Shown one piece after another: positions 1,177 through 32,003 of a stretch of 37,084 nucleotides of DNA. A program made the translations under genes and the position numbers. Numbering within the stretch: position 1 is the first letter of the stretch; the number at the start of each line of letters is the position of its first letter. The stretch lies in assembly GCF_019599295.1 (NCBI RefSeq), contig NZ_JAIEWN010000012.1, forward strand, positions 44,084-81,167. The letters are read 5' to 3'. The notes under the pieces were generated by a model. That model did not search any database, was not told where the DNA came from, and was given only the letters and a program-made list of their open reading frames with translations. This DNA comes from Oscillochloris sp. ZM17-4. Its GTDB lineage: Bacteria; Chloroflexota; Chloroflexia; Chloroflexales; Chloroflexaceae.

Positions 1177-2640
1177 TTACGATGATGATGCCCCAGCTGC
1201 GGCGACGAAGCGCGCCGCCAGCTCGGGGCGGGACAGGAAGTGCAGATGGACATAGGAGGCCAGGACGCTGCCGCGATGCGCGCCCTCGGGGGATGGCTCG
1301 GGCCGCATGGCGTCGGGCAGGCGCTGGTAGAGCCAGGGCAGCCCCTCCGGCCGAGCCTCCCAGACCGAGTAGTGAAACTCGTGGCCGCGCACGGCCTCGC
1401 CCGCCCGCCAGAGCCAGCTGTCGGCCTGGGCCCGCACGGTGCGGTAGCCCAGGGTGAGCCGCCCGGTCATCGCCGAGCGGCCGGGGAGCAGGCCGGCCAG
1501 CGGGTGCGCCTGGCCCTCGGCATCGACGACCGCCTCGGTCAGGTACATCAGGCCGCCGCACTCGGCGTAGATCGGCAGCCCGGCGGCGGCGGCGGCGCGC
1601 AGCGACTCCAGCAGGGGCCGGTTGGCGCTGAGCTGCGTGGCGTACAGCTCGGGGAATCCGCCGCAGAGGTAGACCGCCCCCGCGCCCTCGGGCAGCGCGC
1701 CATCGCGCAGCGGGCTGAAGAAGGCGATCCGCGCGCCCGCCGCGCGCAGCAGGTCGAGGTTGTCCTCGTAGATGAAGCTGAACGCCTCGTCGAGGGCCAC
1801 GGCGATCAGCGGCTGGCCGCCGTTGGGGTGTCGGGTCGCCACAGCCGCCCCCACGTTTTCTTTCTGATAGGTTTGGGCGGCGAAGCCGCCCAAACCTATC
1901 AGAAAGTGGTTCTGGGGCACAGCCTCAGGCATAGGGGGCGCGCTGCGGGCGACCTCCAGCAGGCGATCCAGGTCGACGCCGGCCTCGACGCGGGCGCGCA
2001 CCGCGTCGAGCCACGCCTGCCAGCGGCCCGGCTCGGCGGTGGGCACCAGGCCGAGGTGGCGCTCGGGCAGCGTGATCGCCTCCTCGCGCATCAGCGCGCC
2101 CAGCACCGGCAGGCCGACGCCATCCTTAATCGCCCGCGTCACCATCTCGGCGTGGCGCGGGCCGCCGACATTGTTGAGGATCACGCCGGCCACGCGCAGG
2201 CGCGGGTCGAAGTCGCGCAGCCCGGCGACGAGCGCCGCCGCCGTGCGGGCCATGGCCCGCACATCGAGCACGATCACCACCGGCGTGTCGGTCAGGCGGG
2301 CGATATGCGCGCTGCTGCCGGCGTCGTCGTCGCCGGCGTAGCCGTCGAAGAGTCCCATCACGCCCTCGATCAGGGCCAGGTCGGCCCCCTCGGCGCGGCG
2401 GGCCAGCATCGGGGCGATCTGCTCGGGCGGCACCATCCAGGCGTCGAGGTTCGCGCATGGCCGACCGGCGGCCAGCGCGTGGTAGCTGGGGTCGATGTAG
2501 TCGGGGCCGCACTTGAAGGGCGCGACCGCGAGGCCGCGCGCGGCCAGGGCCGCGATGATCCCGGCCGTGATCGTGGTCTTGCCGCTGCCGCTCATCGGCG
2601 CGGCGAGCAGCAGGCGAGGCAGGGCAGACCGCTCGCTCAT
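1177..2640 (-). CDS. cbiA: Cobyrinate a,c-diamide synthase (with palindrome-encoded insert)
   Basis: CbiA/CobB amidates the a and c side chains of cobyrinate using ATP and glutamine. The N-terminal synthetase domain shows the P-loop [10 protein letters not shown] (about residues 14-23) and KCGPDYIDP. The C-terminal glutamine amidotransferase domain shows the nucleophile cysteine in [10 protein letters not shown] and a late histidine in YVHLHFLS. The ATG at 2640 overlaps the cbiB stop (ATGA), which fixes the start; the open frame continues upstream only as a shadow of cbiB. At 487 residues it is a little longer than usual. Codons 246-260 ([15 protein letters not shown]) are exactly the 45-bp palindrome at 1861-1905, placed in the linker between the two domains. 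Both catalytic domains look intact, so the protein is probably functional. Confidence 0.96.
1861..1905. repeat. GAA-apex palindrome, copy B, in frame inside cbiA
   Basis: Perfect 21-bp arms (1861-1881 and 1885-1905) with a GAA loop at 1882-1884; one further C-G pair extends it to 1860-1906. It is 45 bp long, exactly 15 codons, and in phase with the cbiA reading frame. It falls in the interdomain linker after [10 protein letters not shown] and before [15 protein letters not shown]. The flank (about 1911-1925) contains a GGGGCACAGCC stretch that resembles the second hairpin following other copies. Confidence 0.9.
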
Positions 2641-4139: not shown

Positions 4140-4188
4140 TCGTCTGCTGCCGATGTGCGAGCGAAGCTCGCACATCGGCAGCAGACGA
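4140..4188. repeat. GAA-apex palindrome, copy C
   Basis: Perfect 22-bp arms (4141-4162 and 4166-4187) plus one outer T-A pair, with a GAA loop at 4163-4165. It is followed on the plus strand by TTGGCTTGAGGGCGCAGCCC (from 4190), a small second hairpin shared with copies A and F. It lies immediately upstream of the cobO ribosome binding site, in tandem with copy D. Confidence 0.9.
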
Positions 4189-4216: not shown

Positions 4217-4267
4217 CATATATCTGGTGGACATGCCAGCGAAGCTGGCATGTCCACCAGATATATG
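4217..4267. repeat. GAA-apex palindrome, copy D
   Basis: Perfect 24-bp arms (4217-4240 and 4244-4267) with a GAA loop at 4241-4243. The inner GCCAGC-GAA-GCTGGC is shared with copies F and G, but the outer arm sequence is unrelated. It starts 5 bp beyond the btuD stop codon, so it is the first structure after btuD in the transcript and could be a 3' end or a processing barrier. Confidence 0.9.
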
Positions 4268-4271
4268 ATCA

Positions 4272-5135
4272 TCACTCCCCGCGCAGCGGGGTGATCAGCG
4301 GCGTGCCGTCGAGCGGGTGGCGGCAGACCGCCACCGGCACGCCGTAGGTCGCGCCGATCAGCTCGGCGGTGAGCACCTCATCGGGCGCGCCGACGGCCAC
4401 CACGCGGCCGCCGGCGAGCAGGGCCAGCCGGTCGGCCACGCCGGCGGCCTGGTTCAGGTCGTGCAGGGTGATCACGACGGCCAGCCCGTCCTCGTGGGCC
4501 AGCCGGCGGGCCATGCCGAGGATGGCCGCCTGGTACTTGAGGTCGAGGGCGGCGGTGGGCTCATCGAGCAGGAGCACGCGCGGCTGCTGGGCCAGGGCGC
4601 GGGCCAGGATGGCCCGGCGCTGCTCGCCGCCGGAGAGCTCGGTCACCTGACGCTCGCGCATCGCCCCCAGGCCGGTGCGCTCCAGGGCCGCCTGCACGGC
4701 GGCGCGGTCGTCGGGGGCGAGGGGAAGCAGCCAGCCCCGGTGGGGCGCGCGGCCCAGCCCGACGAACTGCTCGACGGTGAGCGGCCAGAGCTCGGCGCCC
4801 TGCGGGGCCAGGGCCATGCGCCGGGCCAGCGGGCGCGGGCGCAGCCGCCAGATGTCCTGCCCCTCCAGGCTGACGGCGCCGCCGAGCGGGCGCAGCAGGC
4901 GGGCCAGGGCGCGCAGCAGGGTGGTCTTCCCGGCGCCGTTCGGCCCGATCAGGGCCAGCACCTCGCCCGGCCGGGCCTGGAGCTGCACCCCGTCGAGCAC
5001 AGCCCGCCCGCCCAGATCGCAGCGCAGATCCGTGGCCGCGAGCGAGCCCGCCGCGTGATCTGGCGATAGCATCTCCTGATGCGGTCGCGGGCGCGAAGCG
5101 CCCGCGACCGCATCAGGAGATAATGGTATCTTCAT
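4272..5135 (-). CDS. btuD: Vitamin B12 / cobalamin-type ABC transporter ATPase (palindrome near N-terminus)
   Basis: ATP-binding subunit of a FecCD-type importer that works with the neighbouring permease and lipoprotein. It shows Walker A GPNGAGKTTLL, signature LSGGEQRRAILARAL, Walker B VLLLDEPTAALD and the H-loop in VVITLHDLNQA, in the normal order. The product is 287 residues. The ATG at 5135 overlaps the btuC stop (ATGA) and has GGGGAGG upstream, so it is the coupled start. Residues 6-22 are encoded by the palindrome at 5071-5121, which inserts a Pro/Arg-rich stretch before the first strand of the domain. An ATG at 5072 just inside this insert is an alternative start, but its SD abuts the codon. 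Substrate is inferred from the riboswitch and neighbours; a haem or siderophore transporter would look similar. Confidence 0.9.
   Translation of the reverse strand: MKIPLSPDAVAGASRPRPHQEMLSPDHAAGSLAATDLRCDLGGRAVLDGVQLQARPGEVLALIGPNGAGKTTLLRALARLLRPLGGAVSLEGQDIWRLRPRPLARRMALAPQGAELWPLTVEQFVGLGRAPHRGWLLPLAPDDRAAVQAALERTGLGAMRERQVTELSGGEQRRAILARALAQQPRVLLLDEPTAALDLKYQAAILGMARRLAHEDGLAVVITLHDLNQAAGVADRLALLAGGRVVAVGAPDEVLTAELIGATYGVPVAVCRHPLDGTPLITPLRGE
5071..5121. repeat. GAA-apex palindrome, copy E, in frame near the start of btuD
   Basis: Perfect 24-bp arms (5071-5094 and 5098-5121) with a GAA loop at 5095-5097. The length, 51 bp, is 17 codons, so the btuD frame is kept. It begins 14 bp after the A of the btuD start codon and would put a very stable hairpin in the early coding region of the mRNA. 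Confidence 0.9.
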
Positions 5136-7432: not shown

Positions 7433-7666
7433 CCACACGCGGTCTTGAGGGGCGGGACTTCGGGTGCGGTTTTGGTGAAGCTTTGGTGGCGAGGCCGCCA
7501 CAAACGCTACCACCATCTCGCCAGAGCCTCCTGTTGTTTTAGCCACAATGGCCAGCTTCGCTGGCCATTGTGGCTAAAACAACGCTGGGCTTGAGGGCGG
7601 CAGCCCTACGTCGTGGTGCGCCTGGGGCTGACACCCTGCGAAATCTGAGATCCGACAAACGGCCGC
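7433..7666. other. Intergenic region between cobalamin operon and SufT-like gene
   Basis: No gene is supported in this part of the roughly 560-bp gap between btuF and the SufT-like gene. It holds palindrome copy F, its second hairpin (about 7591-7606), and an imperfect short palindrome near 7484-7502 that may be a decayed relative. The rest shows nothing recognisable. Confidence 0.6.
7533..7583. repeat. GAA-apex palindrome, copy F
   Basis: Perfect 24-bp arms (7533-7556 and 7560-7583) with the loop TTC on the plus strand, that is GAA on the minus strand. It is followed by GGGCTTGAGGGCGGCAGCCC, the same kind of second hairpin as after copies A and C. It lies upstream of the riboswitch promoter and downstream of the SufT-like gene. 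Confidence 0.9.
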
Positions 7667-9936: not shown

Positions 9937-9996
9937 AAAAACCAGGTGCCCACATTGAACCTACAGATGTTGGTTCAATGTGGGCACCTGGTTTTT
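9937..9996. terminator. Large 24-bp hairpin next to the integrase 3' end
   Basis: Perfect 24-bp arms (9937-9960 and 9973-9996) around a 12-nt loop. The arms are bordered by an A-run on the left and a T-run on the right, so it can end transcripts from both directions: the transporter side and the integrase, whose stop is at 10021. Its length and perfection also make it a candidate attachment or insertion site. Confidence 0.65.
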
Positions 9997-11826: not shown

Positions 11827-13082
11827 TGATGGACCAATCCATTTTTATCAAGCCGCCCAAGTTCGACCCCGCAGTCTGGCGTCCAGAGGTTCCCTTGCTC
11901 GTGATTATGCGCTGCACTGCACCTACATTGCCTAAGCAGCGGCGGCCGGCTAATCCCGCCTCACTCGTCTTTACCTGGCTTGCCTTCCGCTGGTTCACGG
12001 CCGCTTACCCTAAGCGACTCAAATTCAGCTCACGGTTGATCGCGAAGTGGATGGGTGCCAGCCAAGATAGTGTCCTCGTCTGGTCGAACCTGCTCGTTGA
12101 TCGTGGCCTCCTGCTCCGCACCGAGGGCAGTGAAGAGGACAATTGTTTCAAGCGCCCGCAGCCGGTCTATAGCATCCCACTGCAGGAGATCGAGGCCGAG
12201 AGTAACCGGCTTTCTTTGGAAATGGTGCTGAAATGGCAGCGTGGGCCGGATGATCCTGAATTACCACCTGAAGCCCAACTCTCACTCGACCTTTCGCATC
12301 AGAACGCCGAGGAAAACCCCAGCCATGCCCCTAATTCAGGGCATGGGCATGCCCCTAATTCAGGGCATGGGCATGCCCCTAATTCAGGGCATGGGCATGC
12401 CCCTAATTCAGGGCATGGGCATGCCCCTAATTCAGGGCATGCCATGCCCCTAATTAGGGGCACATGGATGGATGGATCGGATTCATGGATGGATGGATCT
12501 GCGCGCGCGCCGAAAAAGCGTGGTCGCCCTTCAAAGATCCCGCCCGCCCCCACGGCTGATGTCTACGCTGCCCACCCGACCTGGATCGTCGGCGGGCCAC
12601 TCCCCGCCCACCCACACGACCTCTGGAAGAACGCCTGTCCCGCACCCACCGCAGCACACGCCGACCAACTCGCCGCCCTCGCCGCCGAGCATGACACCCC
12701 TACCAGCGGTAATGGCTGGTACTGGGTCGGTCGGGCCATCCTCGCTGGTCTCCACGCGCAGGAGCAGTTGGGGCATCCGAACTACCTGCGCAACCTGCTG
12801 ATCCGCTGGCGGGCCGAGGATTCCTACGGCTCGGACCTCCCCCGCTCATCGAAGGAGACTGTCCATGCGCGACCAAAACGAGGCCCGCGACCCACCGGGC
12901 CCGCCCGCGGCCGATCGCGGGTGGTTTCAGCAGCGCCCGCAGCGCATCGCGGGGTCGCCCCCACTGGGGCCGCAGCGCCGGGAGATGCCGATCTCTCCCC
13001 CGAGCAGATCGCGGACGAGCTCGCCCGCCTTGACGAGCAGGCCCGCATCCAGCTGGAGCAGCGCCGGCGCACCCTCCGCTGA
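11826..13082 (+). CDS. Replication-initiator-like protein with internal iterons
   Basis: An 418-residue protein with no certain family. The N-terminal part (about residues 60-100, KFSSRLIAKWMGASQDSVLV) looks like a winged helix-turn-helix domain. The middle has five near-identical 8-residue repeats HAPNSGHG (about residues 167-205), encoded by 24-bp tandem repeats. An AT-hook-like KKRGRPSK follows, and then a helical C-terminal region. A helicase-loader gene follows directly, the order seen in lambdoid O-P modules and many replisome organiser genes. I therefore infer a phage or plasmid initiator whose own gene holds the origin. The last 70 codons overlap the next gene, and codon statistics there suggest frame errors (see findings), so the true C-terminus is uncertain. 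Confidence 0.6.
   Translation: MMDQSIFIKPPKFDPAVWRPEVPLLVIMRCTAPTLPKQRRPANPASLVFTWLAFRWFTAAYPKRLKFSSRLIAKWMGASQDSVLVWSNLLVDRGLLLRTEGSEEDNCFKRPQPVYSIPLQEIEAESNRLSLEMVLKWQRGPDDPELPPEAQLSLDLSHQNAEENPSHAPNSGHGHAPNSGHGHAPNSGHGHAPNSGHGHAPNSGHAMPLIRGTWMDGSDSWMDGSARAPKKRGRPSKIPPAPTADVYAAHPTWIVGGPLPAHPHDLWKNACPAPTAAHADQLAALAAEHDTPTSGNGWYWVGRAILAGLHAQEQLGHPNYLRNLLIRWRAEDSYGSDLPRSSKETVHARPKRGPRPTGPARGRSRVVSAAPAAHRGVAPTGAAAPGDADLSPEQIADELARLDEQARIQLEQRRRTLR
12325..12462. repeat. Iterons: five 24-bp tandem repeats plus a perfect palindrome (probable origin)
   Basis: Units start at 12325, 12349, 12373, 12397 and 12421 (the last cut to 20 bp). Each begins ATGCCCCTAATT and is itself a palindrome with two mismatched pairs. 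A sixth, diverged unit at 12445-12462 (TGCCCCTAATTAGGGGCA) is a perfect 18-bp palindrome. They lie inside the initiator-like gene. Tandem palindromic iterons in this place are typical of phage and plasmid origins; origin function is inferred. Confidence 0.7.
12463..12499. repeat. Paired 16-bp direct repeats beside the iterons
   Basis: CATGGATGGATGGATC occurs at 12463-12478 and 12484-12499, 21 bp apart (about two helical turns), directly after the iterons. An alternating GC run (about 12500-12511) follows. They may be further binding sites in the origin; in protein they encode WMDGS twice. Confidence 0.6.
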
Positions 13083-29008: not shown

Positions 29009-29057
29009 TTGTGTTGGGGGAATATGCCAGCTTCGCTGGCATATTCCCCCAACACAA
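29009..29057. repeat. GAA-apex palindrome, copy G
   Basis: Perfect 23-bp arms (29009-29031 and 29035-29057) with TTC on the plus strand (GAA on the minus). The inner ATGCCAGC-apex-GCTGGCAT is shared with copy D. It lies about 95 bp upstream of cutC; another short hairpin (29106-29122) lies between them. Confidence 0.9.
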
Positions 29058-31948: not shown

Positions 31949-32003
31949 CACAGCACACGAACGCGGCAGGCGATGAAAGCGCCTGCCGCGTTCGTGTGCT
32001 GTG
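31949..32003 (+). terminator. 24-bp hairpin after the mutase gene
   Basis: Perfect arms (31949-31972 and 31980-32003) with loop ATGAAAG, 19 bp past the stop codon. The stem should stop or stabilise the transcript although only a short CCCTT follows. Arm length matches the GAA-apex family but the loop differs. Confidence 0.7.

Follow-up and report, generated by a model that had tools for sequence, protein, structure and literature searches.

A probable remnant of an ISAs1-type MITE read in frame in the inter-domain linker of CbiA in Oscillochloris sp. ZM17-4

The gene for cobyrinic acid a,c-diamide synthase (cbiA/cobB; positions 1177-2640, minus strand, 487 aa) of Oscillochloris sp. ZM17-4 carries, between the parts that encode its two domains, a long perfect palindrome. 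In our assessment there is a high probability that this hairpin is the remnant of an ISAs1-type MITE that settled in a tolerant linker, with the reading frame kept and with the perfection of the hairpin resulting from template switching. We propose that a non-autonomous element of about 152 bp with three hairpins would have entered the inter-domain linker in this Chloroflexaceae lineage, its transposition being supplied in trans by an ISAs1 transposase, and that the cbiA copy would afterwards have lost its termini plus part of the former linker, the reading frame staying as it was. Template switching during replication, which repeatedly recopies one arm onto the other, most likely kept the central hairpin perfect despite sequence drift. 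All positions refer to the window, that is the whole stretch of 37,084 nucleotides that was analysed.

The palindrome in cbiA and the element around it

The palindrome consists of two 22-bp arms around a GAA triloop (1860-1906). A sequence-only reading of this stretch had placed it at 1861-1905, in frame as codons 246-260 of CbiA. Indeed, 1861-1905 translates in frame as the 15 residues 246-260, and the true extent of the palindrome is one base more on each side. It is not a chance product, as no perfect arm exceeded 12 bp when the window was shuffled 20 times with dinucleotides preserved, and the stability of the DNA hairpin lies 12 SD above that of shuffles.

Judged by alignment, the homologous unit in cbiA extends past the edges of the palindrome. 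When the palindrome plus flanking sequence was searched against the genome itself, many partial matches likewise ran beyond the palindrome, and a profile of the element (146 positions, built from about 60 fetched loci) aligned to at least 1821-1930 on the plus strand (nhmmer 77.6 bits, E 1.2e-22, profile positions 25-132). This decayed and terminally trimmed copy retains the three-hairpin core: a left hairpin with a heavily decayed 5' arm (1821-1855, plus strand), the central hairpin, and a small right hairpin (1912-1928, plus strand; CTGGGGC-ACA-GCCTCAG, one mismatch), the outer two being assigned by alignment to the element. Both terminal inverted repeats (TIRs) are gone, and neither a TIR nor a target duplication is recognisable at the site, so that a full-length insertion in cbiA is deduced from the family and not seen on site. 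A second partial copy, which is more degenerate (profile positions 62-130), lies at 6-73 on the plus strand (nhmmer E 4.5e-7).

The element is a MITE by each anatomical test that was run: it has TIRs, a fixed 10-bp duplication and the ends of an autonomous element without a transposase of its own. The full element of about 152 bp bears the TIR CAGGGCTNNTGCAACGTC at both ends, and the 29 copies that were read share a common plan in which these repeats enclose three hairpins, a long central one between a left one and a small right one. Full-length copies (n = 25) begin with CAGGGC and finish with GCCCTG, and have a length of 150-156 bp, apart from two that measure 176-178 bp and a doubtful pairing of 160 bp. 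At 18 of the 25 the flanking 10 bp are identical in at least eight positions, versus 0 of 600 mismatched flank pairs from the same copies; duplication lengths of 6-9, 11 and 12 bp gave background identity at the full-length copies.

The family is numerous. BLAST returned 77 matches in this genome (both strands counted), the element is present at no fewer than 43 places that score at least 45 bits, and the TIR pattern was matched 52 times here and 252 times in the same-genus genome G003, with no match for the reversed-pattern control. A hand-made consensus of 147 bp matches copies in each of the six genomes of the genus, with up to 95% identity over the full length. At E 1e-6 the family was found in 15 of the 41 genomes of the host's family and in 6 of 6 of the genus; it is also present in the genera g4, g5, g11 and g12, and was found at this threshold in none of the eight g9 genomes.

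Genes for ISAs1-type transposases (PF13808 plus PF01609) are located within elements of 1.31-1.33 kb that carry the TIR of the MITE in five genomes (G026, G003, G023, G034 and G010), of which G003 belongs to the same genus. The ISAs1 element in G023 has exact 10-bp duplications, as have two others whose ends differ somewhat (L263 and L266). Since ISAs1-family insertion sequences of relatives bear its TIR, the element is classified as an ISAs1-type MITE, not as a Rickettsia-like repeat. The identical termini and the 10-bp duplications suggest that an ISAs1 transposase would move it in trans; no PF13808 gene was found in the draft genome, and the partner elements are known from relatives only. 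Three other candidates were rejected. The genome has five DDE_Tnp_1 (PF01609) loci, none with the TIR. The IS4 family, a first guess from the 10-bp duplications, was abandoned once ISAs1 elements with identical ends had been found, and a pairing of TIRs over 1.8-2.4 kb at some loci reflected weak chance matches of the ends.

Several other repeats were observed in the window. Five more perfect hairpins (4140-4188, 4217-4267, 5071-5121, 7533-7583 and 29009-29057) have arms of 23-24 bp and a GAA or TTC triloop (GCGAAGC), where d(GCGAAGC) is an extraordinarily stable DNA mini-hairpin. The neighbours of three of the five have a 'cttgagggc..gcagccct' stretch in common, which suggests a second MITE family. 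The palindrome at 5071-5121 lies within the first codons of an ABC ATPase ORF (4272-5135), with a later ATG after it, and is an in-frame insert at the N-terminus unless the start codon is misassigned. In addition, there is a tandem array at 12324-12467 with the 24-bp palindromic unit CATGCCCCTAATTCAGGGCATGGG, and there are long perfect hairpins with larger loops at 9937-9996 and 31949-32003 (arms of 25 and 24 bp, respectively).

Copy-specific arms of the central hairpin

A comparison of the central hairpin in 64 copies yielded 42 distinct left arms; 51 copies have no mismatch over 21 pairs, with 34 differing perfect arm sequences. The unique arm pairs (n = 46) hold 124 compensated changes, where 2000 permutations gave 17.6 on average and 30 at most; it should be kept in mind that the copies share ancestry and the changes are not all independent. 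The same pairs show 19 one-sided changes, five of them inside the stem, and no non-complementary double changes. The compensated changes comprise 89 transversions and 35 transitions, and the central loops occur in both orientations (GAA 33, TTC 19). The cbiA copy itself departs from the consensus by three paired changes (TTTCTGATAGG versus TTTTTGTTGGG), which are exactly mirrored in the other arm.

Template switching between the arms of an inverted repeat yields simultaneous arm copying and loop flipping (PMC8604942, PMC8794818). Read from the patterns across copies, rather than from dated events, the mirrored arms and flipped loops would fit such homogenisation. Repeated switching from arm to arm would make the perfection of the palindrome the outcome of a mutation process, and not of youth or of selection at the level of the protein. 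Stepwise compensation under selection on RNA is disfavoured, as it would leave one-sided or wobble intermediates and favour transitions.

It is nevertheless conceivable, and in our view unlikely, that selection keeps the hairpin for a function in RNA or DNA, be it as an mRNA hairpin, an internal attenuator or a protein-binding cruciform. The arms covary strongly and the sense-strand RNA of the region is predicted to fold very strongly (z -8.6), both as expected under this explanation, but the prevalence of transversions and the small number of one-sided intermediates are unlike stepwise compensation, and the outer hairpins of the cbiA copy have decayed. Moreover, an Rfam search with the hairpin matched no bacterial family, only eukaryotic microRNAs below threshold, which is the usual response to any long perfect hairpin. 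Transcription termination at this position is unlikely as well, because it lies inside a coding sequence whose downstream domain and catalytic residues are conserved. Selection for structure may still act on intergenic copies, and it does little to explain a hairpin inside the coding sequence of an enzyme.

Returning to template switching, the hairpins of the whole family could be regarded as a record of a continuous process, in which arms change jointly, loops flip and perfection endures without selection, even within genes, where codons would be rewritten two at a time. We consider the case for this broader view to be evenly balanced.

The CbiA linker and other in-frame copies

The cbiA product corresponds to the NCBIfam equivalog PRK01077 (537 bits), and its gene is located within a B12 cluster together with genes for a phosphoribosyltransferase (DBI_PRT), CobD/CbiB, an adenosyltransferase and a FecCD/ABC/binding-protein transporter. 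The Pfam domains CbiA and GATase_3 flank the hairpin, in agreement with the earlier proposal that it is read in frame in the linker separating the two domains. The P-loop residues and C361/H465 are invariant among 35 sequences, so that the catalytic motifs are kept in both domains, as had also been claimed, and both domains look intact. The mean pLDDT of an AlphaFold2 model was 88.6, with values below 50 only at residues 193-197 and 247-270, and the insert is predicted to be disordered; a sequence search of the PDB gave no chain matching CbiA. We infer that the enzyme is very probably functional, with an additional disordered loop that most likely is carried along as a passenger and has no role of its own.

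The insert had been described as a palindrome that adds 15 residues. In fact, the element-derived part comprises about 38 codons (approximately residues 237-274) and the net gain is about 20, for which reason further deletions have to be assumed. The inter-domain segment counts 44 residues here; in 27 homologues it ranges from 20 to 52 (median 24). The clean gap of 15-18 residues that an alignment of CbiA sequences had been expected to reveal does not exist, because the linker is hypervariable. In the closest relative (G005, 87% identical) the linker has 24 residues with a sequence unrelated to the insert, in G001 it holds a different repeat with 78 matches across that genome, in G003 a 73-bp inverted-repeat element that recurs, diverged, at two other places, and in G004 and G015 tandem repeats are visible. 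A linker that tolerates almost any sequence would account for the survival of the reading frame.

A second in-frame copy was found in a family-2 glycosyltransferase (L104:3026-3145), in a loop that counts 8-10 residues in orthologues from other genera and holds other inserts in G005 and G003. The same protein loops thus hold differing repeats or inserts in sister species (the CbiA linkers of G001 and G003, the glycosyltransferase loops of G003 and G005). As far as can be read from these sequences, tolerant loops appear to be colonised in frame recurrently across sister species.

Such copies are rare. Of the roughly 50 copies in this genome, only two are flanked by coding sequence on both sides, and in a set of about 70 from two genomes the copies in cbiA and the glycosyltransferase gene are the only ones with coding potential on both sides. 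The copies that precede ilvC, purD and a holin-like gene only seemed to have a coding context, since the proteins begin downstream of the element. Another copy (L105:3063-3164; G000:C1:223462-223554) separates the end of a cydA-like gene from cydB, where cydB is without its N-terminal part (Pfam match from profile position 38), as if an insertion had been accompanied by a deletion.

The sequence-only reading had drawn a parallel with the Rickettsia palindromic elements (RPEs). This parallel stands for the effect, a dispersed palindromic insert that is read in frame and that relatives do not have, and fails for the element itself, which has TIRs, 10-bp duplications and an ISAs1-type partner and is mostly intergenic. 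Compared by description, RPEs are similarly about 150 bp long, palindromic and in frame in protein genes whose function is apparently retained (PMC10969869), but they are mainly intragenic, whereas the element studied here is almost always intergenic and has the anatomy of a DDE transposon. We consider it very unlikely that the element is a selfish repeat of this kind, specialised for entering protein genes. The two in-frame copies do have an identical orientation and reading frame relative to the element, which may be chance with only two cases, and the consensus is open in five of six frames. This is no more than composition yields, as 53% of same-composition shuffles have at least five open frames, and we rejected a purpose-built open-frame design. 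Moreover, copies are nearly all intergenic, and the spread of the family is explained by the TIRs, the 10-bp target duplications and the ISAs1-type partner.

Two other explanations are extremely improbable. Perfect hairpins can come from template switching (PMC8794818) and perfect palindromes abound in this genome, but had the palindrome been made in place without a mobile element, the homology of the cbiA copy to the dispersed element, which continues past the palindrome for about 39 bp on the left and about 24 bp on the right with the order preserved, would have to be a coincidence at E 1e-22. Short hairpins and many intergenic copies would also suit a REP/BIME element mobilised by a RAYT (TnpA-REP) enzyme, but REPs are palindromes of 20-40 bp (PMC3733652) and a three-hairpin unit within TIRs, with 10-bp duplications, is the pattern of a DDE transposon.

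Related repeats and implications

In-frame fusions between MITEs and host genes have been described before, most strikingly for the RPEs, and also for the RU repeats and the QMITE1 of Coxiella (PMC10969869, PMC2759123, PMC5896051). The enterobacterial RU-1, RU-2 and RU-3 (PMC2759123) and QMITE1 (PMC5896051) are similar in being MITE-like repeats translated within annotated proteins, and differ from the present element in sequence, host phylum and termini. Like the IS-derived MITEs of prokaryotes in general (PMC10969869), it is short and non-coding, shares the TIRs of an autonomous IS, is associated with target duplications and has many, mostly intergenic, copies. It differs from these in its three hairpins with GAA/TTC loops and in central arms that are private to a copy and yet almost perfectly mirrored. 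Inverted repeats homogenised by template switching show the same arm homogenisation and spacer inversion, coding DNA included, but the reported cases are single-site events (PMC8604942, PMC8794818), whereas here a single mobile element shows the signature in dozens of its dispersed copies. In the literature that we searched no description of this MITE family was found. The family is a MITE like those known, and its mirrored, copy-private arms are the feature that merits separate study.

The cbiA insert is a clear example of a MITE incorporated into an enzyme in a bacterium other than Rickettsia or the enterobacteria, and the anatomy, the target duplications and the likely transposase source of the element have been identified. 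It also calls for caution, in that covariation of arms is by itself no proof of a selected RNA structure. With dozens of mirrored, copy-specific arms per genome in related species, the family constitutes a data set for the rate at which template switching rewrites hairpins in bacteria.
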